Of a stretch of 20,822 nucleotides of DNA, positions 1,100 to 20,822 are shown piece by piece; within the stretch, counting starts at the first letter, position 1; every line of letters starts with the position of its first letter. Position numbers and translations under genes: made by a program. The notes under the pieces were generated by a model that saw only the letters and a program-made list of their open reading frames with translations, searched no databases and had not been told where the DNA came from. This stretch comes from a virus. The stretch is taken from the IMG/VR virus record IMGVR_UViG_3300032073_002483, positions 1 through 20,822 of that record, one strand, 5' to 3'.

Positions 1100-1266
1100 T
1101 GTGCTGGATAATCTTTGGGGTATCATGCGCCATTGTGCGCGACTACGGGCTGCTGGGCTACTTTATAGTTGCTGCCTTAATGCTGGCATGGGTTTATGTC
1201 TACATCGCTTACAGCTTAAAACAAGCGCCCCTCAGGGCGCATTCTGTTAGGCGGTTTCGCGAGTAA
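1099..1266 (+). CDS. Small putative membrane protein, 55 aa
   Basis: The start at 1099 overlaps the preceding stop as TAATG, with GAGGA at 1084-1088 ten bases upstream. The product has 55 residues: a short hydrophobic N-terminus (CWIIFGVSCAIV), then RDYG, then a convincing transmembrane helix at about residues 18-40, and a basic tail. I cannot assign a function. Short single-pass phage proteins of this kind include lysis and superinfection proteins, but nothing here identifies one. Its last codons run through the 1225-1240 hairpin and 20 bases into the end of the opposing cyclotransferase gene. A transcript terminated rightward at that hairpin would therefore lack the stop codon. Coding status is plausible but not certain. 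Confidence 0.5.
   Translation: MCWIIFGVSCAIVRDYGLLGYFIVAALMLAWVYVYIAYSLKQAPLRAHSVRRFRE
1218..1240 (-). terminator. Rho-independent terminator of the leftward cassette
   Basis: GCGCCC (1225-1230), loop CTCA, and GGGCGC (1235-1240) form a perfect 6-bp GC stem. Read leftward, the stem is followed at once by TTGTTTT (1224-1218), a standard U-tract. It sits 6 bases past the cyclotransferase stop. Rightward the tail is ATTCTGTT, a weaker U-tract, so it may also slow transcription converging from the helicase side. Confidence 0.78.
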
Positions 1267-1693
1267 AACTGTCTTGTACTGCATTTTTTAGATATTCAGG
1301 ATCAAAACCAAAGTCTTTGTATCCTTGTATTAATGAATCTAGATACCACGATGATGGTGGATATATAGTGTCTTGATCTACCATTCGATAAACCATAACT
1401 TGAGATCCTCCATTAAAATCCGGCAAATCTATAATTTCCTTGTCGTACAAGTTTGGAAATCCTTCATAGCGATCTAGCGCTTTCTCGCATATGTCAGTTA
1501 TCCGCCACAAGCCAATAGGCACTTCTGATCCTTTGCACGGCTCAATGTCAGCTACTCCGCGAAAAACAAGTCTATAATCTTTTAGGGCTATGCTATCCCT
1601 TGTGCATGACCATGGGCATCTGGCTAGCATTTGCTTCATGTGCAAGTTAGACCCATAGGCTCCGTAGTATACGTTTTGATATTTGGGTTCCAT
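1247..1693 (-). CDS. Gamma-glutamylcyclotransferase (AIG2/GGCT-like)
   Basis: Enzymes of this fold cleave gamma-glutamyl amides, releasing 5-oxoproline and the free amine or amino acid. The 148-residue product has the signature YGSNL at residues 13-17, the glycine-rich loop that binds the gamma-glutamyl group. The acidic catalytic residue is probably E77 in LDRYEGFP. Length is normal for the family. The frame is open upstream to 1744, but that longer start would overlap the amidoligase by 38 bases. The start at 1693 has AGAGGA 7 bases upstream and lies just past the amidoligase stop, so I prefer it. It is the second gene of a leftward pair with the amidoligase. Fold assignment is strong; the actual substrate is unknown. 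Confidence 0.87.
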   Translation of the reverse strand: MEPKYQNVYYGAYGSNLHMKQMLARCPWSCTRDSIALKDYRLVFRGVADIEPCKGSEVPIGLWRITDICEKALDRYEGFPNLYDKEIIDLPDFNGGSQVMVYRMVDQDTIYPPSSWYLDSLIQGYKDFGFDPEYLKNAVQDSFTRETA

Positions 1694-1700
1694 GTCAGTT

Positions 1701-1706
1701 TCCTCT
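1701..1706 (-). promoter_or_regulatory. RBS choosing the 1693 start of the cyclotransferase
   Basis: On the minus strand AGAGGA lies 7 bases before the ATG at 1693-1691 and directly after the amidoligase stop (1709-1707). It favours the 148-residue form over an alternative beginning at 1744. Confidence 0.7.
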
Positions 1707-2702
1707 TTAGTTAAGCTCTGCAGCTCGTCGCTGCAACCAATCAACAGTCTCTGGCTCTAAGCCAGCTTCTAATGAATCTTCTTCGTGTAACTGTCGGACA
1801 TTGTTCATTGGGGCAAAGCCGCCAAAGTCTTGCACTTGAGGTATCCAGTCTTCTCTCAGTCCGACATTCTTCATGCTAGACCCTTGTTGGTACAAGCGTT
1901 CAATTTGATAGTTGTTCAGCATAAAGGAGTTCCCATTTTGCTCGAATGCCCAAGCCATGTATCTCCTGCTCCAAGTCACACTGCCTCCGACCTCCTCGTA
2001 TGCGGTTCGCAGTTGGTTGTACCATCGTTGTTTGGTTCTGATACGTCGAACTGTTCGGGTAATTCCTGTCAGCGCTATGGATCTTTCAACAAATTGCTGC
2101 AAAAAGGTTAGCCAGTTTAATATTTTGATGTACTCAGTGGTTCCGCTATGCTGTCTGAACTCTATGCTTCCGCGGCTTGCTATGTTGGTAAGGTTAACTT
2201 TGTGGTATCTGCCCATGGCAGACGCTAGCGTGTCTTTGGTATTGAAATCTCTTTGCTTCACAGTTTCAGTCTGATTACTGTTTAAGGTTCCGCACCACCT
2301 TGGGTTCCCTCTTCGGCTTCGTGGCATCAATCGGTCAATTTGACTTTCGTAGTCAGCGTATCGCTTAAACACTGTCTGTATTTCGGCTGGGGCCATGTCA
2401 CGGCTATCTAGGTGAATGTGTAGGCCACACTGTCGGTTAACTGTGGCTCCTGCTTGGTCTAAAGCTTGGCAAACTAGCTCTAACTCTCTAAGACCTTGCT
2501 CTCCGGTTAAGATAGGGCTCACCACTTCACCGGCATTGTTGTAGCCAAGACTAGCGTCAGTAACTATCTTCCAGTGGGTTCGTGTGTTGTGGTTGTAATG
2601 CTCTACTTCGCAAGGAACGCCAAGCTCGCGTATGCACTGAGCTACCAGTCTGCGGCTTCCTATAAACTCAATCTCAATCCCAAATGCTCTGTTGTTAACC
2701 AT
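1707..2702 (-). CDS. Putative amidoligase (carboxylate-amine ligase, glutamine synthetase-like fold)
   Basis: The 331-residue protein matches the phage and bacterial 'putative amidoligase' family, predicted from fold comparison to use ATP to join a carboxylate to an amine. It has FGIEIEF at residues 7-13 (first acidic metal/ATP strand), GEVVSPIL around 58-65, CGLHIHLD at 92-99 with the H-x-H pair H95/H97, and SIEFRQHSGT at 179-188 carrying the conserved Glu, Arg and His. The C-terminal 130 residues are helical, with many Arg and Trp. An in-frame TAA lies directly before the ATG, so no longer start is possible; GGG about 10 bases upstream may serve as RBS. It is first in the leftward transcript and 13 bases from the cyclotransferase. 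The substrate is unknown: peptide, amino acid, cell wall and protein tag are all possible. Confidence 0.87.
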   Translation of the reverse strand: MVNNRAFGIEIEFIGSRRLVAQCIRELGVPCEVEHYNHNTRTHWKIVTDASLGYNNAGEVVSPILTGEQGLRELELVCQALDQAGATVNRQCGLHIHLDSRDMAPAEIQTVFKRYADYESQIDRLMPRSRRGNPRWCGTLNSNQTETVKQRDFNTKDTLASAMGRYHKVNLTNIASRGSIEFRQHSGTTEYIKILNWLTFLQQFVERSIALTGITRTVRRIRTKQRWYNQLRTAYEEVGGSVTWSRRYMAWAFEQNGNSFMLNNYQIERLYQQGSSMKNVGLREDWIPQVQDFGGFAPMNNVRQLHEEDSLEAGLEPETVDWLQRRAAELN

Positions 2703-2735: not shown

Positions 2736-2764
2736 AGAATACCCTAGCTTGTATACTATGTCAA
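2736..2764 (-). promoter_or_regulatory. Leftward sigma-70-type promoter for amidoligase-cyclotransferase
   Basis: On the minus strand the -35 is a perfect TTGACA (2764-2759), the spacer is exactly 17 bases, and the -10 is TATTCT (2741-2736). It lies 34 bases upstream of the amidoligase start. It is the best promoter-like sequence I saw and would be recognised by an unmodified host polymerase. Confidence 0.72.
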
Positions 2765-3416: not shown

Positions 3417-3682
3417 TGAACAAAAATGAAGCCGTCCGCTGTTTAGAAGCAATGCGCTGGCATTTCGCCAAGAGTATGCCAACAATACCTCATGCGTATG
3501 CCCGTAGGCGTGAGTGGAGCGGAGACAATTTTGATGATGTTGTTGAGTTCATTAGGAGTGCTGGGGTCGCGGAAGCCTTCTACAGCAAGTCATATATTTA
3601 TTTTTATCATGGCGAATATAAGTATTGGACAATGGGATCCCCAGTTCATGAAACAATTTTGATAAACAGGGCTAATTCGTAA
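3416..3682 (+). CDS. Conserved-looking small protein of unknown function, 88 aa
   Basis: This 88-residue protein is coupled to the ParB gene (TGATG overlap, AGGA 5 bases upstream). It has a distinctive pattern rich in aromatic residues and proline: MRWHFAKSMPTIPHAY near the N-terminus, several Arg and Trp, then SKSYIYFYHGEYKYWTMG and ending ETILINRANS. The repeated alternation of aromatic and charged residues suggests a compact beta/alpha nucleic-acid- or nucleotide-binding fold. I recall similar W-H-F-A-K-(S/T)-M-P...P-H proteins as unnamed phage genes, but I cannot name the family. Its place between ParB and two methyltransferases, with overlapping ends, implies it works with them; that is inference. 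Confidence 0.72.
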   Translation: MNKNEAVRCLEAMRWHFAKSMPTIPHAYARRREWSGDNFDDVVEFIRSAGVAEAFYSKSYIYFYHGEYKYWTMGSPVHETILINRANS

Positions 3683-4311
3683 TGATTACAAGTATAGGCA
3701 AGCATAGAGTGCAAATGTCTGATGTCATGGAAGGCATAGATGATTTAATGCAAGGTGAGCAAGCTGACTTTCTTTACAGTGACCCTCCTTGGGGTCAAGG
3801 GAACCTTAGATACTGGCAGACAATAAACAAAAGGCATACAGGCAGGGATAAGTCAGATATTGATTATGCTGAATTTTTGCCGTTTTATTTCAATATGGCC
3901 TATCAGTATGTCAAAGATATTTGCGTCATTGAGTACGGTCAGAAATGGAGAGATGACGTAATAAAGGTTGCTTTTGATGCGGGTTTTAAGCACTCAGGAG
4001 TATGCATTTCAATGTACCAAGCTGGAAAACTTTTGCCTCTTGATGTACACGTTTTCAGCAAGTCTGGGTCAGCAGTAATGACCGATGACTTTAGGAGAGG
4101 TTGCTTGGAGTTTAAAGGTTTGAATTTAGTAAGGTTTGTCTTTAATCAAATGCTTCCTGAAAACTCCAAAATTGTTTTAGATCCTATGTGCGGGATGGGG
4201 TACACAGCGCAAGCCACTGTAGATAAGGGATTGGCTTTTCGCGGAAACGAGCTTAATGAGAAACGCTTAGATAAAACTATAGCTAGACTTAAAAAGGATA
4301 TTGAGTGGTGA
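3682..4311 (+). CDS. DNA methyltransferase, amino-MTase with DPPW motif
   Basis: The protein (209 aa) is a small SAM-dependent methyltransferase of the type that methylates exocyclic amino groups (N6-adenine or N4-cytosine). Catalytic motif IV is DPPW at residues 34-37, within FLYSDPPWG. The SAM-binding motif I comes later: LDPMCGMG at 166-173, followed by an acidic GNELN at 188-192. This permuted order (IV before I) is that of beta-type and MT-A70-like enzymes. There is no separate target-recognition domain, so specificity probably comes from a partner, perhaps the next gene product or the ParB protein. It begins in a TAATG overlap with the 88-residue gene and ends overlapping the next start. 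The enzyme class is clear; base and sequence target are unknown. Confidence 0.83.
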   Translation: MITSIGKHRVQMSDVMEGIDDLMQGEQADFLYSDPPWGQGNLRYWQTINKRHTGRDKSDIDYAEFLPFYFNMAYQYVKDICVIEYGQKWRDDVIKVAFDAGFKHSGVCISMYQAGKLLPLDVHVFSKSGSAVMTDDFRRGCLEFKGLNLVRFVFNQMLPENSKIVLDPMCGMGYTAQATVDKGLAFRGNELNEKRLDKTIARLKKDIEW

Positions 4312-4892
4312 TATATCACACCGCTTTAAAAAACAGGTCTGCTAATTATGGTGGCATAAAAGAGACTGTCAGATCAGATCATCCTAGAGGGGTTATGTTA
4401 AAGCATGATTTTATATCTAACGGGCTAGCTCCTGAGTTTGATGAATGCAATGTGCTATACGCAGAGCCTCCTTATGCCCATAGCGGCCTAAAAATATTTG
4501 ATGCTAGAGCCGGCGTTAATAATAGATCGTACAGTGATTTAATTAAGGCTATGGGCAGTATAATTGAATGCGGATCAATCCCAGTTTATCTGGTTCTAAG
4601 CAGGGCAACTTTAAATAAACTTCCTAAGCCTGATGTAATTTATGAAACTAGATTAAACGGAGACCTTGTATGCTTGGGTGTCTGGAATGATAAAAACCCT
4701 ACCCTGCTATCATCAGTAGAACTAATCTGCAAAACACTTGGGTCTAGGTATAAATGCCTAGGTGATTTTGCTTGCGGATATGGCGCTTCAGTAAAAAACT
4801 TTATTCAAGGCGGGGGTTATAGATTTGTAGCATCAGATTATGACGGGAAGTGCATAACTGTAATGTCGGCGCAGCTAAAGGGCGTTCAGTGA
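4305..4892 (+). CDS. Divergent methyltransferase-fold protein with EPPY motif (possible non-catalytic partner)
   Basis: The 195-residue protein has the same layout as its upstream neighbour: a motif IV equivalent, LYAEPPYAHSG, with EPPY at residues 54-57, and a motif I equivalent, GDFACGYGAS, at 153-162, followed by ASDYD. The key first residue of (D/N/S)PP(Y/W) is Glu instead. In the eukaryotic METTL3-METTL14 pair the active subunit has DPPW and the inactive scaffold has EPPL, so this may be a degenerate partner. Motif I is intact, so SAM binding may be kept. It begins at GTG 4305 or 4308, the latter overlapping the previous stop as GTGA, with AAGGA at 4294-4298. It may instead be an active enzyme of unusual type. 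Confidence 0.68.
   Translation: MVIYHTALKNRSANYGGIKETVRSDHPRGVMLKHDFISNGLAPEFDECNVLYAEPPYAHSGLKIFDARAGVNNRSYSDLIKAMGSIIECGSIPVYLVLSRATLNKLPKPDVIYETRLNGDLVCLGVWNDKNPTLLSSVELICKTLGSRYKCLGDFACGYGASVKNFIQGGGYRFVASDYDGKCITVMSAQLKGVQ
4877..4882 (+). promoter_or_regulatory. RBS supporting the GTG start at 4889
   Basis: AAAGGG lies 6 bases before GTG 4889, which overlaps the preceding stop as GTGA (4889-4892). The open frame continues up to another GTG at 4850, but that start would overlap the neighbour by 43 bases and has no comparable site. Confidence 0.55.
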
Positions 4893-6052
4893 AAATATTC
4901 TTAAAGCAAAACGTATGGGATGCCGCTTTAGAGCGTATCAATAGGATTTTTGATGATTTTGATAATGTGGTAATTAGCAGCAGCGGGGGCAAAGATAGCA
5001 CTGTCACTATGCAATTAGCCCTCAAGGTAGCGGAGGAGAGAGGCAAGCTACCCTTAAAAATGATGTTTTTGGACCAAGAAGCTGAATATCGTATGACGAT
5101 TGAGTATATGCGCAAGGCCATGACAGACCCTAGAGTTGAGCCTATCTGGATTCAGTGTCCGATACGCCTGTTTAACGCAACATCAATGGACGAGCCTTGG
5201 TTGCAGTGTTGGGAAGAGGGGGGTGATTGGATGCGCCCGAAAGAGGATATAAGCATCAAAGAAAATGTGTTTGGCACTGATAGGTTCCATGATATTTTCC
5301 CGAAAATTTTAGACCATTACTTCCCTAATGAGTCAGCTTGTTATTTGGCTGGAGTGCGAGCAGAAGAAAGCCCTACAAGGCTGGCGGGCTTGACTACTTT
5401 TCAAACATATAAAGAGATTACGTGGGGCAAACGCCTCAATGTGAAAAAGAACCATTATACTTTTTATCCAATATGGGATTGGAAATTAGGTGATGTGTGG
5501 AAAGCAATACATCATAACCAATGGGACTATTGCCAGATATATGATGAGCTTTATAGATACGGCATTGCGCCTCACAAAATGAGGGTGTCAAATTTGCACC
5601 ATGAGACGGCTGTGCATAGTCTTTTTTTCTTGCATGAAATAGAAGGCGACACTTGGGACGCTTTAACCAAAAGACTTGGAGGCATCAATCAAGCAAAACA
5701 TATGGAAAAACATGAGATGTTCGCGGTGCAAGAGTTGCCGTATATGTTTGATAGCTGGAAAGAATACAGAGATTATTTGACTGAGAACCTCATTACGATA
5801 CCCGAGAATAGAGCTAAATTTGTCAAGAAATGGGAAAAGATGGATGATTTGTATAGCCTAATGAACAAGCCTCAAGATTTGATTAAGAAACAAATAGGGT
5901 CTCTATTGGTTAATGATTGGGAGTTCGTAAAATTAGATGGGTTTTTAAATAGCCCAGCCATGATTACTTATCGGGACTGGCGCAAAGGCAAGTTAGGAGC
6001 AAGGGCTAGAGCAGACTCTCATATGATTTACATTCAGGAGCAGTATAGATGA
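4889..6052 (+). CDS. PP-loop ATPase, PAPS reductase-like (IbrA-like)
   Basis: This protein of 387 aa belongs to the adenine-nucleotide alpha-hydrolase/PAPS reductase superfamily. Its PP-loop SGGKDST is at residues 32-38, FLDQEAEY (60-67) and GVRAEES (155-161) are typical downstream motifs, and YPIWDW (193-198) lies before a long helical C-terminal region. Length and architecture resemble IbrA, known from E. coli with its ParB-like partner IbrB, which follows here. The family also includes DndC of phosphorothioation systems. However, I see neither the C-terminal ECGLH-type cysteine motif of true reductases nor a CxxC cluster like that expected for a 4Fe-4S centre. The likely chemistry is ATP pyrophosphate cleavage or adenylation of an unknown substrate, not sulfate reduction. 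GTG 4889 is preferred over 4850. Confidence 0.8.
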   Translation: MKIFLKQNVWDAALERINRIFDDFDNVVISSSGGKDSTVTMQLALKVAEERGKLPLKMMFLDQEAEYRMTIEYMRKAMTDPRVEPIWIQCPIRLFNATSMDEPWLQCWEEGGDWMRPKEDISIKENVFGTDRFHDIFPKILDHYFPNESACYLAGVRAEESPTRLAGLTTFQTYKEITWGKRLNVKKNHYTFYPIWDWKLGDVWKAIHHNQWDYCQIYDELYRYGIAPHKMRVSNLHHETAVHSLFFLHEIEGDTWDALTKRLGGINQAKHMEKHEMFAVQELPYMFDSWKEYRDYLTENLITIPENRAKFVKKWEKMDDLYSLMNKPQDLIKKQIGSLLVNDWEFVKLDGFLNSPAMITYRDWRKGKLGARARADSHMIYIQEQYR

Positions 6053-6747
6053 CTTCAACCAGTGACATCAAAAGATGCTTGCTATCAGGAATAACTGATT
6101 TAGACCCAATTGAGGCTATACATTTCTTGGAAGAAGTTAGACAGCTTACGTTTGAGATGAGCCCTCTAAAAGAGCAGCCAGTAGATAGAGTGCGTTGGGT
6201 TGATATTGATTTGGTGCAGGCTAATGACTACAACCCTAACTCAGTGGCAGGGCAAGAGATGGCGTTACTTTATACGTCAATACTTCATGATGGATACACG
6301 CAGCCTGTAGTGACTATATGGGATGAAGATGTTGGCAAGTACGTTATTGTTGATGGATTTCATAGATACTTCACTTGTAAGTCAAATCAAGACATCAAAG
6401 ACCGAAATCACGGCAAATTGCCTATCGTAGTATTACAGAAAAACATAAACGAGAGGATGGCCGCTACGGTGAGGCATAACAGAGCTAGAGGTAAGCATTC
6501 AGTAGGTGGCATGTCTAGTATGGTGTTCTCTATGCTAGAAAACGGTTGGAGTGACGCAGATATATGCAATCACCTAGGAATGAGCGCCGATGAGTTATTG
6601 CGATTAAAGCATATAACAGGGTTCAGCAAGCTTTTTGAGGACACTGAGTATAGCCAGACATGGACTACAAAGCATCAAATAATGCTCAAAAAGAAGCAAC
6701 AAGAATTAGATAATGCTGGATCAAACGATAACGGACAGGCCATATGA
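6049..6747 (+). CDS. ParB-like protein (IbrB-like) with HTH-like segment
   Basis: The protein has 232 residues. After a helical N-terminus, RVRWVDIDLVQANDYNPN (about residues 47-64) begins a ParB-like domain whose signature loop is VDGFHRY, DGFHR at 102-106. A basic segment, RHNRARGKH, follows at 142-150. Residues about 164-191 (NGWSDADICNHLGMSADELL) form a helix-turn-helix-like unit, so DNA binding is likely. It starts in an ATGA overlap with the PP-loop gene, with AGGAG 8 bases upstream. The pair therefore reproduces the IbrA-IbrB gene order. DndB of phosphorothioation systems has a comparable DGQHR motif. It is immediately followed by the small terminase (ATGA overlap), which links the island to packaging. 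Biochemical role unknown. Confidence 0.83.
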   Translation: MTSTSDIKRCLLSGITDLDPIEAIHFLEEVRQLTFEMSPLKEQPVDRVRWVDIDLVQANDYNPNSVAGQEMALLYTSILHDGYTQPVVTIWDEDVGKYVIVDGFHRYFTCKSNQDIKDRNHGKLPIVVLQKNINERMAATVRHNRARGKHSVGGMSSMVFSMLENGWSDADICNHLGMSADELLRLKHITGFSKLFEDTEYSQTWTTKHQIMLKKKQQELDNAGSNDNGQAI

Positions 6748-14456: not shown

Positions 14457-14810
14457 ATGAGCGCAGGCTACCATCATTTCATAATAGAGCAGGGTGCTAC
14501 TTTCCAAAAAGTCCTTACCCTAAAGGACTCTAGCGGCTCCGTTGTAAATCTCACGGGCTATACAGCCGCTCAAATGGATTTGCGCACTGACGCAGATCAA
14601 TCTACAGCAGCTATATCTCTTACCATAGCGAACAATCGTATCGCTTTAGGGGCCTCAGCAGGCACCGTGACTCTAACCATTTCAGCTAGCGATACTGGAG
14701 GCTTGATTGCCACAGATGGCGTTTATGATCTTGAGATTACTGACGCGCAAAGTAATATCTTCAGAATAGTTGAAGGAACTTACACTGTTCGCAGAGGAAT
14801 TAGCCGATGA
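14457..14810 (+). CDS. Beta-rich tail/baseplate-type protein, 117 aa
   Basis: The protein (117 aa) is almost wholly beta-strand. The pattern is IIEQGATFQKVLTLKDSSG, VVNLTGYTAAQMDLR, GTVTLTISASDTGGL, DGVYDLEITDAQSN, FRIVEGTYTVRRGISR. This arrangement (an opening strand, then V-x-L-T-G-Y, then Y-D-L-E-I) recurs in small phage proteins encoded just before tail fibres, and resembles the N-terminal fold of some receptor-binding or baseplate proteins such as BppU. It is coupled to the fibre through an ATGA overlap, so it may be the adaptor that attaches the fibre to the tail. GGGGA lies 6 bases before the ATG. Family resemblance is from memory and moderate. Confidence 0.62.
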   Translation: MSAGYHHFIIEQGATFQKVLTLKDSSGSVVNLTGYTAAQMDLRTDADQSTAAISLTIANNRIALGASAGTVTLTISASDTGGLIATDGVYDLEITDAQSNIFRIVEGTYTVRRGISR

Positions 14811-17800
14811 GTAATACCATAAACACTATAACTGTAGAGGGCGAAAGCTCAGTATCAGTTTTAACTGTTGGCACGCAAGGCTTGGCTGGACCAAACACGA
14901 TTCTAGCAAGGTCGGTAGCAGATGCCACGGCAAGCACAGCAGGATCTTTGATCGTTTATGACCACGTCAATACTAGCTGGGTAGATAGCCAATCATCCGC
15001 AGCTCAAAGCATTACGGCAAAGCTATTTAATTTGCAGTTTACGGGCGGAGGGGCCGCTGTAACAGCTGTTCTTGATGAAGATAACCTAGGCAGTAACTCT
15101 AACTCCGCGTTAGCGACACAACAAAGTATTAAGGCTTATGTTGATGCTCAAATAACAGCTCAAGACTTAGATTTTCAAGGCGATACTGGTGGTGCGCTAT
15201 CAATAGACCTAGATAGCGAAACTTTAAACATGCTTGGGGGAACAGGTGTTGATACTGTAGGTAGCGGAAACACAGTAACAATCAACATTGACTCAACAGT
15301 AGTTACTTTATCAGGAACACAAACCTTAACTAATAAGACGCTAACCACTCCTGATATCAATGGTGGCGATATATCAAACGCCACAACAATCAACAAATCA
15401 CCCGTTATCACTCTCGCTGGTGATTTAAGCGGAAACGCTACCCTAACAGAGCTGGGTAATGCCACTCTTACGGCCACAATAGTCGCAAATTCTGTAGCTT
15501 TGGGAACAGATACTACGGGCAGTTATATATCCACTATCGCAGCAGGCGAGGGCATAGACGTATCTGGAAGTGGCGCTGAGTCAGCCACAGTTACGATCTC
15601 AGCCGAAGACGCAACTGACAGCAACAAAGGCGTAGCTTCTTTTAACAGTACTGATTTCACTGTTTCTAGCGGCGCAGTGACGGTTAACGCGGAGCGTGTT
15701 CAAGACATAGTTGGCGGCATGGTGACCGGCAATATTGAGTCAGGAATAGCTGTAACCTATGAAGACTCAGACGGCACCTTGGATTTTAATGTAAACGATC
15801 CGGTTATAACGCTGTCTGGAGATGTTGCTGGTTCAGCTACAATGACAAACCTTGGCGATGTAACGATATCAACCACGGTGCAGGCGAATAGCGTAGCGCT
15901 AGGCACAGATACTACAGGCAATTATCTAGCGACTTTAGCGGCATCAAACACAGGGATTGACGTAGCTAATAGCGGATCAGAGTCAGCGGGGGTTACGGTC
16001 GGGTTAAATACTGAGCACGTTCAAGATTTAGTGGGCGCTATGGTGTCCGGTAACACGGAAAGCGGCGTTGCAGTTACTTATGACGATACAAACGGCAAGC
16101 TAGACTTTAATGTGGCGGATCCTGTAATCACCTTGAGTGGTGACGTAGCAGGTAGCGCGACAATGACTAACCTAGGCGATGTCACAATCTCAACTACGAT
16201 CCAAGCGAATAGCGTGGCTCTGGGAACAGACACCACAGGAAATTACATCGCTACTGTATCGGCTGGCGAAGGGATTGACGTTTCTGGTAGTGGTTCAGAG
16301 TCAGCGACCATAACTATAAGTGCAGAAGACGCTACGGATAGCAATAAAGGTATAGCCTCTTTTGATGCGACTGATTTCTCAGTTAGCTCTGGAGATGTAA
16401 CTTTAAACGCAGAGAGGGTTCAGGACATTGTTGGTGCAATGGTTGGCTCTAATACTGAGAGCGGAATCGCTGTAGCTTATCAAGATGGTGATGGAACATT
16501 AGATTTTAATGTAGATGATTTCACTATAACTCTAGGTGGTGACTTAGGAGGCTCGGTTACAATCACTGACCTGGCATCAGCCACTCTGACGGCGACTATC
16601 CAAGCTAATAGCGTTGCGCTAGGAACGGATACCACTGGCAATTATGTTGCCACTGTAGCTGACGCGGGCAACTCAAGGATAACAGTCGCAAATAATGGCT
16701 CAGAAAACGCGGCCATCACTCTTGATATAACTGATGATGCTATTGGCAATGCTCAAATAGCTGATAACGCAGTAACTTTGGGGACTCAGTCTACGGGCAA
16801 TTATGTCGCCACTATTGCGGGAACCAATAACGAGATAGAAGTATCTGGATCTGGATCAGAAACAGCAGCGGTGACCATTGGATTGCCTGATGACGTGACT
16901 ATCAGCGGCAACTTAGTCGTAACGGGTGATTTTACTGTAAATGGCGATAATGTTGAGCTAAATACGTCATCCTTGAATGTAGAAGATGCAACTATAAGGG
17001 TTGCGAAGGGAGCCACAAGCCTAGCCAACACTAACGGCGCTGGAATTGAGTTTGGGGCATCTAGTAGCAAGCCGACCATTACTTGGGATAATGGCAACTC
17101 TAGGCTGACATCAAACAAAACATTCCACGCCGCTACATTGGTGGGCGCGCTAACTGGCAACGCTTCTACAGCTACAGCGCTAGCAACCCCTCGGGCAATA
17201 GCCCTGACAGGCGATGTAGTGGCCGCAGGGGTTAATTTTGACGGCACTGGGGCAATTACACTAAACACCACTATTCAAGCCAATAGTGTCGCTTTAGGCA
17301 CGGATACGACAGGAAACTATGTAGCTACTATAGCTCAGTCAAATACAGGTATTGATATAGCAAACAGCGGATCAGAAACCGCAGGCGTTACTTTGGGTCT
17401 TAACGCAGAGCACGTTCAAGACCTTATAGGGGCTATGTTCTCCAGTAATACTGAAACAGGAATTACAGCCACCTATCAAGACGGCGACGGAACAATTGAT
17501 CTTGTTATTGGATCTGGAGATATCACTAATGGAATGCTTGCCGGGTCAATAGCTAATGGAAAGCTAGCTAACAGCTCTATAACTGTTACTGATGGTAGCA
17601 ATAGTACTGCCGTATCTCTAGGGGGGACGATTACTTACACTGCTGGCTCTGGAATAGATATAACTGAGTCGTCCGGCGCTATTACAATTGACGCAGAAGA
17701 TGCCACCACCTCAAATAAAGGCGTAGCAAGCTTTGATGCCACGGACTTCGCAGTTTCTTCCGGCGCTGTGACCCTGCAATCTGAAAGAATACAAGATATT

Positions 17801-20800
17801 GCTGGTGCCATGTTCAGCAGCAATACCGAAACAGGTATTACGGCCACTTACCAAGATGCTGACGGAACAATTGATTTAGTCATAGGTAACGGTGATGTAA
17901 CAAATGGAATGCTCGCTAACAGCACGATAACTGTAAGCGATGGCAGCAATACCACGGCTACGGCTCTAGGGGGGACTATCACGTTCTCCGCAGGCGAGGG
18001 GATTGATGTAACTGAGTCATCTGGAACTATAACGGTTGCAGCAGAGGATGCGACAGCATCAAACAAAGGCGTGGCCTCATTTACAAATGATTTTAGCGTA
18101 TCAAGCGGTGCCGTATCACTTGGGGCTAGCGGTGTCACGGCTGGAACTTCAGGCACAAGTACGGCTATTCCAAGAATTACTGTTGACGCAAAAGGCCGTA
18201 TAACAGCAATCACCACAAATAATATCAGCACCAGTTTCACGCTTGCGGCAGACTCTGGCTCAAATGACACGTTCAATACCGGAGAAACGCTAACTTTCAC
18301 CGGCGGCAGCGGTATAGATACCACTGTAAGTGATAATGAGATAACAATTGCAGCCGAAGACGCTACCGATAGCAACAAAGGTGTAGCTAGCTTTGATAGC
18401 ACGGACTTTACGGTAAGTAGCGGAGCAGTAACGGTAAACGCTGAGAGAGTGCAGGATCTAGTCGGTGCTATGCTCAGCAGCAACACTGAGACAGGCATAA
18501 CGGTCACATACCAAGACGGCGATGGAACAATTGACTTTGTTGTTGATACTAGCTCTATATCAGAAACACTAACCAATAAAGCTATTACAAGCCCAGATAT
18601 AAACGGTGGAACTATTGATGGGGCTACAATTGCTACATCAGATGTTACCGTGGGATCCGGCAAAACCTTGGACGTATCTGGCGGCACTTTAACGCTAGCA
18701 GATAATCAGATAAGCGGTGATAAGGTTGAAGGCGGGACTGTGGCCGCTATGACCATCACGGCCATGACGGGAACCTTGCAGACCGCAGCTCAAGCTAACA
18801 TTACTAGCGTGGGAACTTTAAGTTCTCTTGGAGTTACCGGCGATCTAGCTGTAAACACTAACGTATTGAAGGTGGATACTTCAAACAATAGGGTGGGGAT
18901 ATTAGACGCAACACCTGAAGTTAGCTTGGATGTAGGCTCCGCTACTGATGCGGTTCATTTACCAGTGGGGACAACGGGTCAAAGACCTACAGGTGCCGCT
19001 GGCTACTTGAGATATAACAGCACGCTGGGTCGCTTTGAGGGCTTTACTGACGCATGGGGCGAGATCGGCGGAGGCGGATCGAATACTTTTACCGTCAACA
19101 CTTACACAGCAGACGGATCTGGAAAAGCATACACATTAAGTCAAATTCCTAGCTCAGAAGATAACTTGATTGTATTTGTTGAGGGGGTATTCATGAACCC
19201 CAACGACTTTACGTTATCAGGTAACACTTTGACCCTGGACGCGGTGCCGCCATCAGGCCGAAAAATAGTCGTTTACAGCGTCCGTGCAGCGGTTAGTGGT
19301 AGCAACCTAAACCATGATCAATTCACCTGTAACGGAGGCAGTGGCAACCTAGGCACGCAATTCACGTTAAGCATTGAGCCGGTAAGCGAGAATAACACTC
19401 AAGTCTTTTTAGATGGCGTATATCAACAAAAAACTGACTACGCAGTAAGCGGCACGACCTTAACAATGGACACCGCTCCCACCAGTGGCGCGATACTTGA
19501 AGTGATGACGTTTACTCAAACGGACATTAATGTACCGACAAATGACACCATAGATACCAGCCACCTCAAAACCGATGCTGTCACAACGGCCAAGATCACA
19601 GATGCCAACGTGACCCGCGCCAAAATTGCAGCAGATGCAATTGATGCGACAAAGCTGGCAGACGGCGCGGTTAGCGAAGAGCACCTTGACCCAACCATTA
19701 TAAGCGGACTTACAGCAGCAACGCCTGTTTCGGGTGACAGCATTATGTTCTTGGATGCTACAGATAGCGCGCTCAAGAAAGCAGACGTCAATGAGATCAT
19801 GGCTACAGCGGTGAGCATTACCTCTGCCGCAGATGCCGTGGCTATGTCATTTGATAGCAGTGAGAACGCAACGTTCACTGGTCAGGTAGTAGCTAACGCT
19901 GGTGTGGTAGTAGATAACATCACAATAGATGGGACTACGATTGGCCTAAGCTCTGGCGACCTAACGCTAGATGCTGCAGGAGACATTATCCTTGATGCGG
20001 ATGGCGCACAAGTTATATTTAAAGATGCTGGAACAACAATCGGTGGATTTAATAATAGTAGTAGCAACTTAAATATATTCTCGCATGTGCAAGATAAGGA
20101 TATCGTATTTACTGGTGACGATGGTGGTCTTACTATCACAGCCCTCACCCTTGATATGTCAGATGCTGGTAAAGCTACTTTTAATTCTGCTCTAGATGTA
20201 GGCGGAACAATAACTATTAATGGTAGTGGTAACTTAAACCTACCAACAGACTCTGGAACTATTTATTTAGGTGCTGATGCAGATTTAAGAATCTTGCATA
20301 CAGGTTCAGCAGGTCAAATTAATAATACTACTGGCGACTTAACACTAGATGTAGCTGGCGACATCATCCTTGATGCTGATGGTTCAACAATAACAATGAA
20401 AGATGGTGGCACTACTAGAATTACATTCAATTTAGATGCTACTCCAGACTTTGTTATGGCGGGAGGTAACGCAAGTATAACTGCTTCTACTTCTGATGCA
20501 GATTTGTCTTTTATAGGAAACGACGGTGGTTCAGATGTAACAGCCCTCACCCTTGATATGTCAGCGGCGGGTGCGGCTACGTTTAATGCGGGTGCTACTT
20601 TTGGCGGCAGCGTCGGGATTGGCTCCGCGCCTTTTGCACCACTTCATGTAAAAGAAACAGGATGGAGTAGTGGATCTCCCTACGGCACAGTCCAGTTAAT
20701 TGAAGGCAACGCCGTTAATGACAACAACTGGGGTCATCTTGTTATAACAGATACAGACACTGCCGTAGGTCAAGGTGGCGCGATTAGTTTTGCTACAGGC

Positions 20801-20822
20801 GCAGCTAGTTCAATGAATCCCT
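14807..20822 (+). CDS. Giant modular tail fibre/adhesin, 3'-partial (at least 2005 codons)
   Basis: ATG 14807 overlaps the preceding stop (ATGA), with AGAGGA 8 bases upstream. Translation by eye found no stop through the window end. The N-terminus has GTQGLAGPN, then VLDEDNLGSNS...LATQQSIKAYVDAQ (from about residue 90), a common phage fibre motif. TLTNKTLTTPDINGG follows at about 174. Repeats built of ANSVALGTDTTGNY, AEDATDSNKGVASF and VQDLVGAM...NTESGI fill about 199-1250. Later come GQRPTGAAGYLRYN (about 1391) and two tandem beta modules (about 1426-1573). Next are a TAKITDAN...AKIAADAI helical repeat (about 1595), FLDATDSALKKADVN, and two LDADG modules. The protein should be a long, trimeric host-binding fibre; the receptor-binding tip is off the window. 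Size and repeats suggest a recombination-prone gene. Confidence 0.9.
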   Translation, partial: MSNTINTITVEGESSVSVLTVGTQGLAGPNTILARSVADATASTAGSLIVYDHVNTSWVDSQSSAAQSITAKLFNLQFTGGGAAVTAVLDEDNLGSNSNSALATQQSIKAYVDAQITAQDLDFQGDTGGALSIDLDSETLNMLGGTGVDTVGSGNTVTINIDSTVVTLSGTQTLTNKTLTTPDINGGDISNATTINKSPVITLAGDLSGNATLTELGNATLTATIVANSVALGTDTTGSYISTIAAGEGIDVSGSGAESATVTISAEDATDSNKGVASFNSTDFTVSSGAVTVNAERVQDIVGGMVTGNIESGIAVTYEDSDGTLDFNVNDPVITLSGDVAGSATMTNLGDVTISTTVQANSVALGTDTTGNYLATLAASNTGIDVANSGSESAGVTVGLNTEHVQDLVGAMVSGNTESGVAVTYDDTNGKLDFNVADPVITLSGDVAGSATMTNLGDVTISTTIQANSVALGTDTTGNYIATVSAGEGIDVSGSGSESATITISAEDATDSNKGIASFDATDFSVSSGDVTLNAERVQDIVGAMVGSNTESGIAVAYQDGDGTLDFNVDDFTITLGGDLGGSVTITDLASATLTATIQANSVALGTDTTGNYVATVADAGNSRITVANNGSENAAITLDITDDAIGNAQIADNAVTLGTQSTGNYVATIAGTNNEIEVSGSGSETAAVTIGLPDDVTISGNLVVTGDFTVNGDNVELNTSSLNVEDATIRVAKGATSLANTNGAGIEFGASSSKPTITWDNGNSRLTSNKTFHAATLVGALTGNASTATALATPRAIALTGDVVAAGVNFDGTGAITLNTTIQANSVALGTDTTGNYVATIAQSNTGIDIANSGSETAGVTLGLNAEHVQDLIGAMFSSNTETGITATYQDGDGTIDLVIGSGDITNGMLAGSIANGKLANSSITVTDGSNSTAVSLGGTITYTAGSGIDITESSGAITIDAEDATTSNKGVASFDATDFAVSSGAVTLQSERIQDIAGAMFSSNTETGITATYQDADGTIDLVIGNGDVTNGMLANSTITVSDGSNTTATALGGTITFSAGEGIDVTESSGTITVAAEDATASNKGVASFTNDFSVSSGAVSLGASGVTAGTSGTSTAIPRITVDAKGRITAITTNNISTSFTLAADSGSNDTFNTGETLTFTGGSGIDTTVSDNEITIAAEDATDSNKGVASFDSTDFTVSSGAVTVNAERVQDLVGAMLSSNTETGITVTYQDGDGTIDFVVDTSSISETLTNKAITSPDINGGTIDGATIATSDVTVGSGKTLDVSGGTLTLADNQISGDKVEGGTVAAMTITAMTGTLQTAAQANITSVGTLSSLGVTGDLAVNTNVLKVDTSNNRVGILDATPEVSLDVGSATDAVHLPVGTTGQRPTGAAGYLRYNSTLGRFEGFTDAWGEIGGGGSNTFTVNTYTADGSGKAYTLSQIPSSEDNLIVFVEGVFMNPNDFTLSGNTLTLDAVPPSGRKIVVYSVRAAVSGSNLNHDQFTCNGGSGNLGTQFTLSIEPVSENNTQVFLDGVYQQKTDYAVSGTTLTMDTAPTSGAILEVMTFTQTDINVPTNDTIDTSHLKTDAVTTAKITDANVTRAKIAADAIDATKLADGAVSEEHLDPTIISGLTAATPVSGDSIMFLDATDSALKKADVNEIMATAVSITSAADAVAMSFDSSENATFTGQVVANAGVVVDNITIDGTTIGLSSGDLTLDAAGDIILDADGAQVIFKDAGTTIGGFNNSSSNLNIFSHVQDKDIVFTGDDGGLTITALTLDMSDAGKATFNSALDVGGTITINGSGNLNLPTDSGTIYLGADADLRILHTGSAGQINNTTGDLTLDVAGDIILDADGSTITMKDGGTTRITFNLDATPDFVMAGGNASITASTSDADLSFIGNDGGSDVTALTLDMSAAGAATFNAGATFGGSVGIGSAPFAPLHVKETGWSSGSPYGTVQLIEGNAVNDNNWGHLVITDTDTAVGQGGAISFATGAASSMNP
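15401..16735 (+). repeat. 720-bp (240-codon) in-phase super-repeat within the fibre
   Basis: Matched landmarks recur exactly 720 bases apart: PVITL (15401/16121), ANSVALGTDTTG (15485/16205), AEDATDSNKG (15602/16322), VQDIVG (15698/16418), a second ITL...GD strand (15812/16532), and a second ANSVALGTDTTG (15884/16604). Similarity fades after about 16735. Each unit has a long half (399 bp, with AEDAT) and a short half (321 bp). Third positions differ widely between copies, so the duplication is old, yet length is kept perfectly. Confidence 0.85.
17414..18545 (+). repeat. Second block of fibre repeats (AEDAT and VQD..GAM modules)
   Basis: Further copies of the two modules occur here. VQD-type GAM motifs stand at 17414, 17789 and 18449, and AEDAT at 17693, 18041 and 18353. 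The AEDAT-to-VQD offset is 96 bases in each copy that has both (also at 15602 and 16322). The copy at 18041 has lost its VQD half. This block shares NTETGI and GTIDL/GTIDF wording, different from NTESG and LDFNV in the first block, so the two blocks expanded separately. Confidence 0.8.
19082..19525 (+). repeat. Two tandem beta modules of the fibre
   Basis: Module 1 (about 19082-19282) reads FTVNTYTADGSGKAYTLSQ, LIVFVEGVFMNPNDFTLSG, and ends VVYSV. Module 2 (about 19310-19525) reads FTCNGGSGNLGTQFTLSI, QVFLDGVYQQKTDYAVSG, and ends EVMTF. They share the V(E/D)GV...DF/Y..SG.TLT.D..P.SG layout common in phage fibres. Confidence 0.75.
19949..20590 (+). repeat. Duplicated LDADG fibre module with a 25-bp exact direct repeat
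   Basis: Copy 1 (from about 19949) and copy 2 (from about 20327) share SGDLTLD/TGDLTLD, AGDIILDADG, a KD.GTT segment, D.GG...TALTLDMS and ATFN. An identical 25-base stretch occurs at 20138-20162 and 20540-20564. The repeated GACAT(T/C)ATCCTTGATGC segment lies at 19982 and 20360, so copy 2 has a net 24-base (8-codon) insertion relative to copy 1. Near-identity at DNA level points to a more recent event than the 720-bp repeat. Confidence 0.78.

Follow-up and report, generated by a model that had tools for sequence, protein, structure and literature searches.

A two-gene amidoligase and gamma-glutamyl cyclotransferase cassette with a recombining ligase domain in a clade of tailed phages

Introduction

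What would a tailed phage do with two coupled enzymes, one predicted to form amide bonds and the other to cleave gamma-glutamyl amides? Such a pair, an amidoligase and a gamma-glutamyl cyclotransferase (GGCT), is encoded in a complete 20.8-kb linear IMG/VR record from a tailed phage (IMGVR_UViG_3300032073_002483), of which all 20,822 nucleotides were analysed here and are referred to as the window; linear records of this kind are often fragments rather than whole genomes. The idea that enzymes of this sort form a phage cassette reportedly goes back to Iyer et al. in 2009, as relayed by citing papers.

In later papers, an amidoligase and a GGCT, often joined by an ATP-grasp enzyme and a glutamine amidotransferase, constitute a published phage "peptidoglycan modification cassette" (PMC5498523, PMC10580990), with examples in PSA-HP1, RIO-1, phiEco32 and the LUZ24/tf/PaP3 group. 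Envelope modification is the proposal in print for such cassettes (PMC5498523, PMC10580990, PMC11253131, PMC11318856). Amidoligase/GGCT cassettes are widespread in phages, and the literature, as accessible, treats their function at the level of proposals. The original prediction, made from the window's sequence, held that the pair has no settled phage function, which agrees with the accessible portion of the published record: it contains superinfection-exclusion and nitrogen-metabolism proposals with no direct assay, and its open-licence part contains no direct demonstration of changed host peptidoglycan for any cassette member.

Gene content and layout of the window

The window opens with a helicase fragment and two small genes, which are followed by the opposing pair; next in line are ParB-like, methyltransferase-like, PAPS-reductase, ParB-like, large terminase, portal, Mu-F-like, protease and capsid genes. 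The amidoligase gene (331 aa) occupies positions 1707..2702 and the GGCT gene (148 aa) positions 1247..1693, both on the minus strand. All other credible genes run in the opposite direction, and the remaining minus-strand ORFs in the ORF list of the window overlap plus-strand genes. The original description of the two genes as coupled and opposed to all others thus holds, given a 13-nt gap between the amidoligase stop and the GGCT start (the median in relatives is also 13 nt) and no other credible minus-strand gene in the window.

The GGCT most likely starts at the ATG at 1693, with a Shine-Dalgarno sequence, AGAGGA (1701..1706, minus strand), between the amidoligase stop codon (1707-1709) and this ATG. 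A longer alternative, starting at a TTG at 1744, fits the gene limits given in the original prediction.

Enzyme assignments, active sites and predicted structures

The amidoligase was assigned to the glutamine-synthetase-like COOH-NH2 ligases by its matches to PF12224 (Amidoligase_2; E=2.5e-34, 119.7 bits against a curated cut-off of 22) and phrog_2443 (E=6e-46) and by its predicted model. The GGCT was assigned from PF06094 (E=7e-7, 30.3 bits, cut-off 22.8), phrog_2520 (E=2e-29), its model and a PDB fold match. NCBIfam and defence-system models gave no match to either protein. Both enzyme names had been proposed originally, and the Pfam and PHROG matches, together with conserved active-site residues, bear them out.

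The catalytic domain of the amidoligase comprises aa 4-204 (2091..2693, minus strand), in which E10/E12, W44, D49, E59, H95/H97, R130, K168 and E181/R183 are invariant in an alignment of 27 sequences (A1). Across 16 diverse phage sequences G8, E10, W44, D49, E59, H95, H97, C137, E181 and R183 are invariant and E12 nearly so; the ExE, HxH and ExR motifs, presumed metal- and ATP-site residues, are therefore preserved even among very diverse phages. The predicted model (pLDDT 85) agrees well with other predicted viral amidoligases. Its top PDB matches are mostly GshF and glutamine synthetases and are weak (TM 0.3-0.4), and gamma-glutamylmethylamide synthetase is among these weak matches; a sequence search for a solved structure of any amidoligase relative returned none.

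The GGCT model (pLDDT 93) matches human GGCT best in the PDB (3cry, E=3.7e-9, TM 0.77; 3cry and 2i5t both at E about 4e-9) and GGACT more poorly (TM about 0.54). Among 22 GGCT sequences, Y13, G14 and N16 of the YGSN motif and E77 are invariant and S15 is at least 90% conserved. E77 aligns with the catalytic Glu of human GGCT, the residue changed to Q in 3cry and to A in 2rbh. Human GGCT (C7orf24), GGACT and Bacillus subtilis YkqA share the fold of the window's GGCT, with about 25% identity over the fold; its substrate may differ from theirs. Because active-site residues and motifs are kept and the models resemble known folds, weakly in the case of the amidoligase, both enzymes are probably active, as far as sequences and models can tell.

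Human GGCT acts on gamma-glutamyl amino acids. This activity of the closest solved relative, together with the weak fold match to gamma-glutamylmethylamide synthetase, would suit auxiliary metabolism, in which small gamma-glutamyl compounds (amines or peptides, for nitrogen or amino-acid supply) would be formed by one enzyme and cleaved by the other and no tagging takes place. A chronic phage of deep-sea Planctomycetes carries the same gene types (amidoligase, GGCT, amidotransferase and glutathione synthase) and promoted host growth on nitrate or ammonium, an effect read as nitrogen metabolism but, in the text available, not traced to these genes by deletion (PMC10945688). A constant metabolite would also leave unexplained the recombining ligase domain described below, and we regard a purely metabolic role as unlikely, though far from negligible.

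Promoter and terminator

A sigma-70-like promoter, TTGACA-N17-TATTCT (2736..2764, minus strand), matches the consensus at 10 of 12 positions, and 33 nt separate it from the amidoligase start downstream. Just 3' of the GGCT, an intrinsic terminator-like hairpin (1215..1240, minus strand) has a GC-rich stem of six G-C pairs and a tetraloop followed by the T-rich tail TTGTTTTAAG. Scans of the single region found such sites no more often than expected by chance, with three promoter-like sites against 3.5±1.8 expected and three terminator-like sites against 2.1±1.4.

Comparison with relatives separated the two elements. A promoter of at least 9/12 matches, ending 25-60 nt before the amidoligase start, is present in 21 of 27 non-redundant relatives, compared with 3.4±1.7 in dinucleotide shuffles (maximum 11 in 200). 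It is this comparison, not the single-window scan, that makes a conserved cassette promoter well supported in the clade at the sequence level, and the pair's own promoter, part of the original prediction, is upheld. The "textbook" terminator of that prediction fared less well: the hairpin exists and a terminator is plausible in the window, but such sites are at chance level there and a hairpin 3' of the GGCT occurs in 7 of 23 relatives (1.0±0.9 in shuffles), which indicates no general feature. A 55-aa hydrophobic ORF on the plus strand (1099-1266), overlaps the preceding stop (TAATG) and crosses the hairpin; it may encode a genuine membrane protein of small size.

Linkage and history of the cassette

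Relatives were found through the terminase (best segments 66-84% identical) and through alignments; no match came from searching annotated phages directly with the cassette DNA or from scanning viral contigs with a single sequence. The terminase relatives gave a clade set of 33 loci spanning helicase to terminase, the window included. Both genes are present in 23 loci and absent from 10, no locus has only one, and the pair lies opposite to the terminase strand in 23/23. If loci were independent, which is not fully true of them, the chance of so perfect an association would be about 1e-8 (1/C(33,10)), and chance pairing of the two genes was rejected on this pattern.

Beyond the clade, among 78 viral loci seeded with the amidoligase (clade members included), a GGCT lies downstream on the same strand within 3 kb in 62, and directly adjacent in 57. 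Conservation of the pairing, on which the original proposal hinged, is therefore found at both scales. On bacterial genome contigs only 5 of 80 amidoligase loci have a GGCT placed in this way, and next to most amidoligases on contigs of Bacteroidota genomes no GGCT was detected. Counts of absent GGCTs are upper bounds because divergent members can escape the profile, and those of L007, L008, L010 and L013 did (relatives are given L numbers where they must be told apart).

The cassette takes one of two alternative sites, either between helicase and ParB or immediately ahead of the gene for the small terminase, and is always inverted. Group-1 relatives carry it beside ParB-like and methyltransferase genes, and group-2 relatives beside terminase genes. 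L039 lacks the cassette between orf764 and ParB1. In that locus, about 650 bp (5190-5846) without an ATG-started ORF of at least 50 aa lie exactly at the cassette site of its relatives.

Distances of the amidoligase and the GGCT are correlated (r=0.92), and both track those of the terminase (Mantel r 0.87 and 0.82, respectively). Since cassette distances follow the terminase, the sequences indicate that the cassette is a long-standing resident of the clade with losses or gains, and a recent jump-in was rejected. The original picture of a self-contained moron is accordingly retained for the all-or-none presence between the same flanks, the two positions and the own promoter, but not for a recent arrival. 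Both genes are under purifying selection, with dN/dS of 0.07-0.14 for the GGCT and mostly 0.14-0.42 for the amidoligase, apart from pairs that include a swapped domain.

The phage is probably lytic; no tyrosine integrase was found in the 16 relatives searched, which may be fragments. The clade appears to be marine, judging by the apparent sampling contexts of relatives and the nearest phages rather than by a stated habitat. L094, a contig from a Flavobacteriales MAG (NHFY01000003.1), encodes an amidoligase 51% identical to that of the window with an adjacent GGCT; it is perhaps a phage contig, which would hint at a Flavobacteriales host.

A recombining domain in the amidoligase

In the amidoligase the catalytic domain is followed by a variable domain at about aa 200-312 (1767..2105, minus strand; limits approximate, from jumps in identity and synonymous divergence among relatives) and then by a short conserved tail. 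The window's copy of the variable domain has no Pfam match. Pairs that are 95-98% identical in the catalytic domain can fall as low as 19-24% in the variable domain and are similar again in the tail and GGCT. Among 99 overlapping pairs at least 70% identical in the catalytic domain, whose counts are not independent events, 56 drop below 45% in the variable domain; the tail is nevertheless at least 60% identical in 45 of these 56.

Individual comparisons place the change sharply. For L017 and L259, identity is mostly 92-100% across some 6 kb that include the cassette, but 30-60% at about nt 600-930 of the amidoligase. L071 is 97-100% identical to L074 or L076 for up to 5.5 kb upstream and 42-47% inside the variable domain, and similarity returns in the tail and GGCT; against L074 it reaches 100% upstream of the domain and 77-98% again through the tail and GGCT. 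The mirror case is L040 and L262, which are 45-88% identical around the variable domain and 92-97% only inside it. Synonymous divergence between L017 and L021 is 0.14 in the N domain, 1.49 in the C domain and 0.21 in the tail. Fast evolution alone was rejected as a cause of low C-domain identity, as synonymous divergence jumps as well and L040/L262 show the opposite pattern.

All four combinations of two C-allele families with two N backbones are present, from which we conclude that the variable domain recombines as a unit among relatives. The closest N-domain relative of the window's amidoligase is 61% identical there and 20% in the C domain; as the window's copy has no near relative, exchange in this copy is extrapolated from the clade. 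The GGCT is not exchanged along with the domain (it is 97% identical between L040 and L041, whose backbones are similar and whose variable domains differ), and window-type variable domains have a GGCT within 3 kb in 58 of 58 cases where the contig allowed this to be seen. Single-linkage clustering at 50% of 76 sequences, which include amidoligases with unrelated C-terminal regions, gave 50 classes for the variable region and 8 for the catalytic part.

The domain could be no recognition module at all but a weakly constrained region of an enzyme with an ordinary substrate, tolerating homologous exchange. Its dN/dS within one C-allele family (about 0.1-0.4, usually 0.2-0.4) does exceed that of the N domain (0.05-0.2), and phage genomes are generally mosaic, with a neighbouring gene slot in this clade swapping too. 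The same values, however, indicate a functional, maintained domain, and the families are old and distinct (19-25% identical to one another), are shuffled among nearly identical backbones and are each constrained internally. Mere relaxation, moreover, would not give tenfold higher synonymous divergence. We therefore consider weak constraint quite unlikely to be the explanation.

In other lineages a DUF3489 helix-turn-helix (HTH) occupies the position of the variable domain. DUF3489-like HTHs follow the catalytic domain in amidoligases of genome contigs and other phages (L097, L100, L102, L103, L113, L126, L131, L209, L217, L223, L231, L304, L307, L312 and L316); L102 and L126 match the Pfam model, and the others were recognised by a custom-built profile. 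Such an arrangement, and the location of the group-1 cassette beside ParB-like and methyltransferase genes with the other hypervariable spot in the neighbouring slot, would fit a ligase that adds an amino acid to a nucleic-acid base or a DNA-bound protein under the guidance of its C-terminal domain. The window's C domain is nevertheless unrelated to the HTH type (profile comparison probability 1.3%, which led us to reject a hidden DUF3489 HTH), the group-2 cassette lies elsewhere, beside terminase genes, and GGCT would have no clear role, making nucleic-acid modification improbable.

Comparison with known systems

The pair shares with the peptidoglycan cassette an amidoligase and a GGCT in one phage gene cluster, with predicted amide chemistry on glutamyl peptides. 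It differs from PSA-HP1-type cassettes in its opposite-strand location with a conserved promoter and in having two genes; the PSA-HP1 cassette adds an ATP-grasp enzyme, a second amidoligase and a glutamine amidotransferase (PMC5498523). Neither an ATP-grasp nor a glutamine amidotransferase partner was identified in the window, and nine cassette-bearing relatives, which may be fragments, gave no match to GATase_6 (PF13522), one phage ATP-grasp protein or R2K_3. The published kind of cassette, the absence of these partners and the recombining domain had escaped the original prediction, which overall is partly supported.

Clostridia-type gut phages and prophages likewise have the amidoligase upstream of the GGCT, close by and on the same strand (PMC11253131, PMC11318856). 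Their members include Terrisporobacter TPDSL_ph1, C. clostridioforme LM41 and Faecalimonas, Dorea and Anaeroplasmataceae phages, with amidoligases about 20-28% identical to that of the window. In three annotated regions the Clostridia-type pair runs with the neighbouring late genes, whereas the window's pair runs against its neighbours. The closest viral structural match to the window's catalytic domain is A0A0U4IXQ9 of Arthrobacter phage Salgado. In annotated regions of Arthrobacter phages (Salgado/Shrooms, Ottawa), the partner adjoining the amidoligase is a glutamine amidotransferase, not a GGCT.

In butirosin synthesis, an ATP-dependent ligase (BtrJ) adds a gamma-glutamyl group that a cyclotransferase (BtrG) later removes; BtrJ is an ATP-grasp ligase and not a member of PF12224. 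By analogy with this working principle of gamma-glutamyl attachment and subsequent removal, the amidoligase might cap an amine intermediate with glutamate and the GGCT uncap it. No biosynthetic cluster is seen here: neither in the window nor in its relatives could further biosynthetic genes be recognised next to the pair, which travels as two genes only. Protection and deprotection of an intermediate is thus very unlikely.

Pairing of amidoligase and GGCT in phages is already in print. The open-licence literature yielded no description of a two-gene form that lies on the opposite strand under a conserved promoter, as in this apparently marine clade, and none of the recombining amidoligase domain, whose exchange may provisionally be considered new.

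Proposed function

We tentatively propose, with appreciable doubt, that one enzyme of the pair writes a gamma-glutamyl-type amide and the other erases it, with a variable domain that chooses an exchanged target. A probably lytic marine phage would express both genes in the infected cell, using the cassette's own promoter. The amidoligase would activate a carboxylate at the expense of ATP and join it to a target amine; the most likely carboxylate is the gamma-carboxyl of glutamate or a glutamyl peptide. The coupled GGCT would cyclise gamma-glutamyl groups to 5-oxoproline and free the amine, so that the tag may be removed, proof-read or recycled. We infer the glutamyl donor, the target and a single bond common to both enzymes. 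Since no neighbouring GGCT was detected for most amidoligases on Bacteroidota genome contigs, an eraser may not always be needed.

The variable domain (about aa 200-312) would pick a macromolecular target, a role suggested by its recombination, and could be exchanged between phages because hosts would differ in this target or phages would compete over it. A variable target is favoured because a fixed small-molecule substrate does not explain an exchanged ligase domain, and an unswapped GGCT is what would be expected if the bond stays constant while the target changes. Counting against target recognition, no binding protein is known among relatives of the variable domain, and the DUF3489 HTH at the same position elsewhere points towards a regulatory role or contact with nucleic acid and away from recognition of the envelope.

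The most likely target would be the host envelope, either the peptidoglycan peptide or a surface polymer, whose modification may block superinfecting phages or host countermeasures; the second choice would be a host protein. The envelope is favoured because of the variable-domain exchange and the published proposal for phage amidoligase cassettes. A cytoplasmic ligase acting on the envelope would need to modify a precursor.

A bolder and rather doubtful extension is that marine phages possess a retargetable tagging system, in which a constant glutamyl-ligase and a matched eraser are combined with an exchangeable target domain whose diversity is maintained by frequency-dependent selection. If true, phages would have a system for tagging proteins or envelopes in which the target can be changed, and its evolutionary logic would be comparable to that of the specificity domains of restriction-modification systems. 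Recombination of the variable domain is, to our knowledge, the first handle on the possible site of target choice and makes the function testable.

Other features of the window

A second hypervariable slot lies between the ParB and PAPS-reductase genes, at about 3682-4892 in the window and at 6717-7779 in L017, 177-1216 in L259 and 6710-7778 in L041. With near-identical flanks, it holds the window's methyltransferase-like pair in some relatives and different genes in others. The PAPS-reductase/DUF3440 protein (4850-6052, plus strand) overlaps the following ParB-like protein (6049-6747, plus strand), and the two are kept in many terminase relatives. Their DndC-like matches are weak, and we take them to be an IbrA/IbrB-like pair. 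An ORF of more than 2000 aa (14807-20821, plus strand) runs off the contig end.
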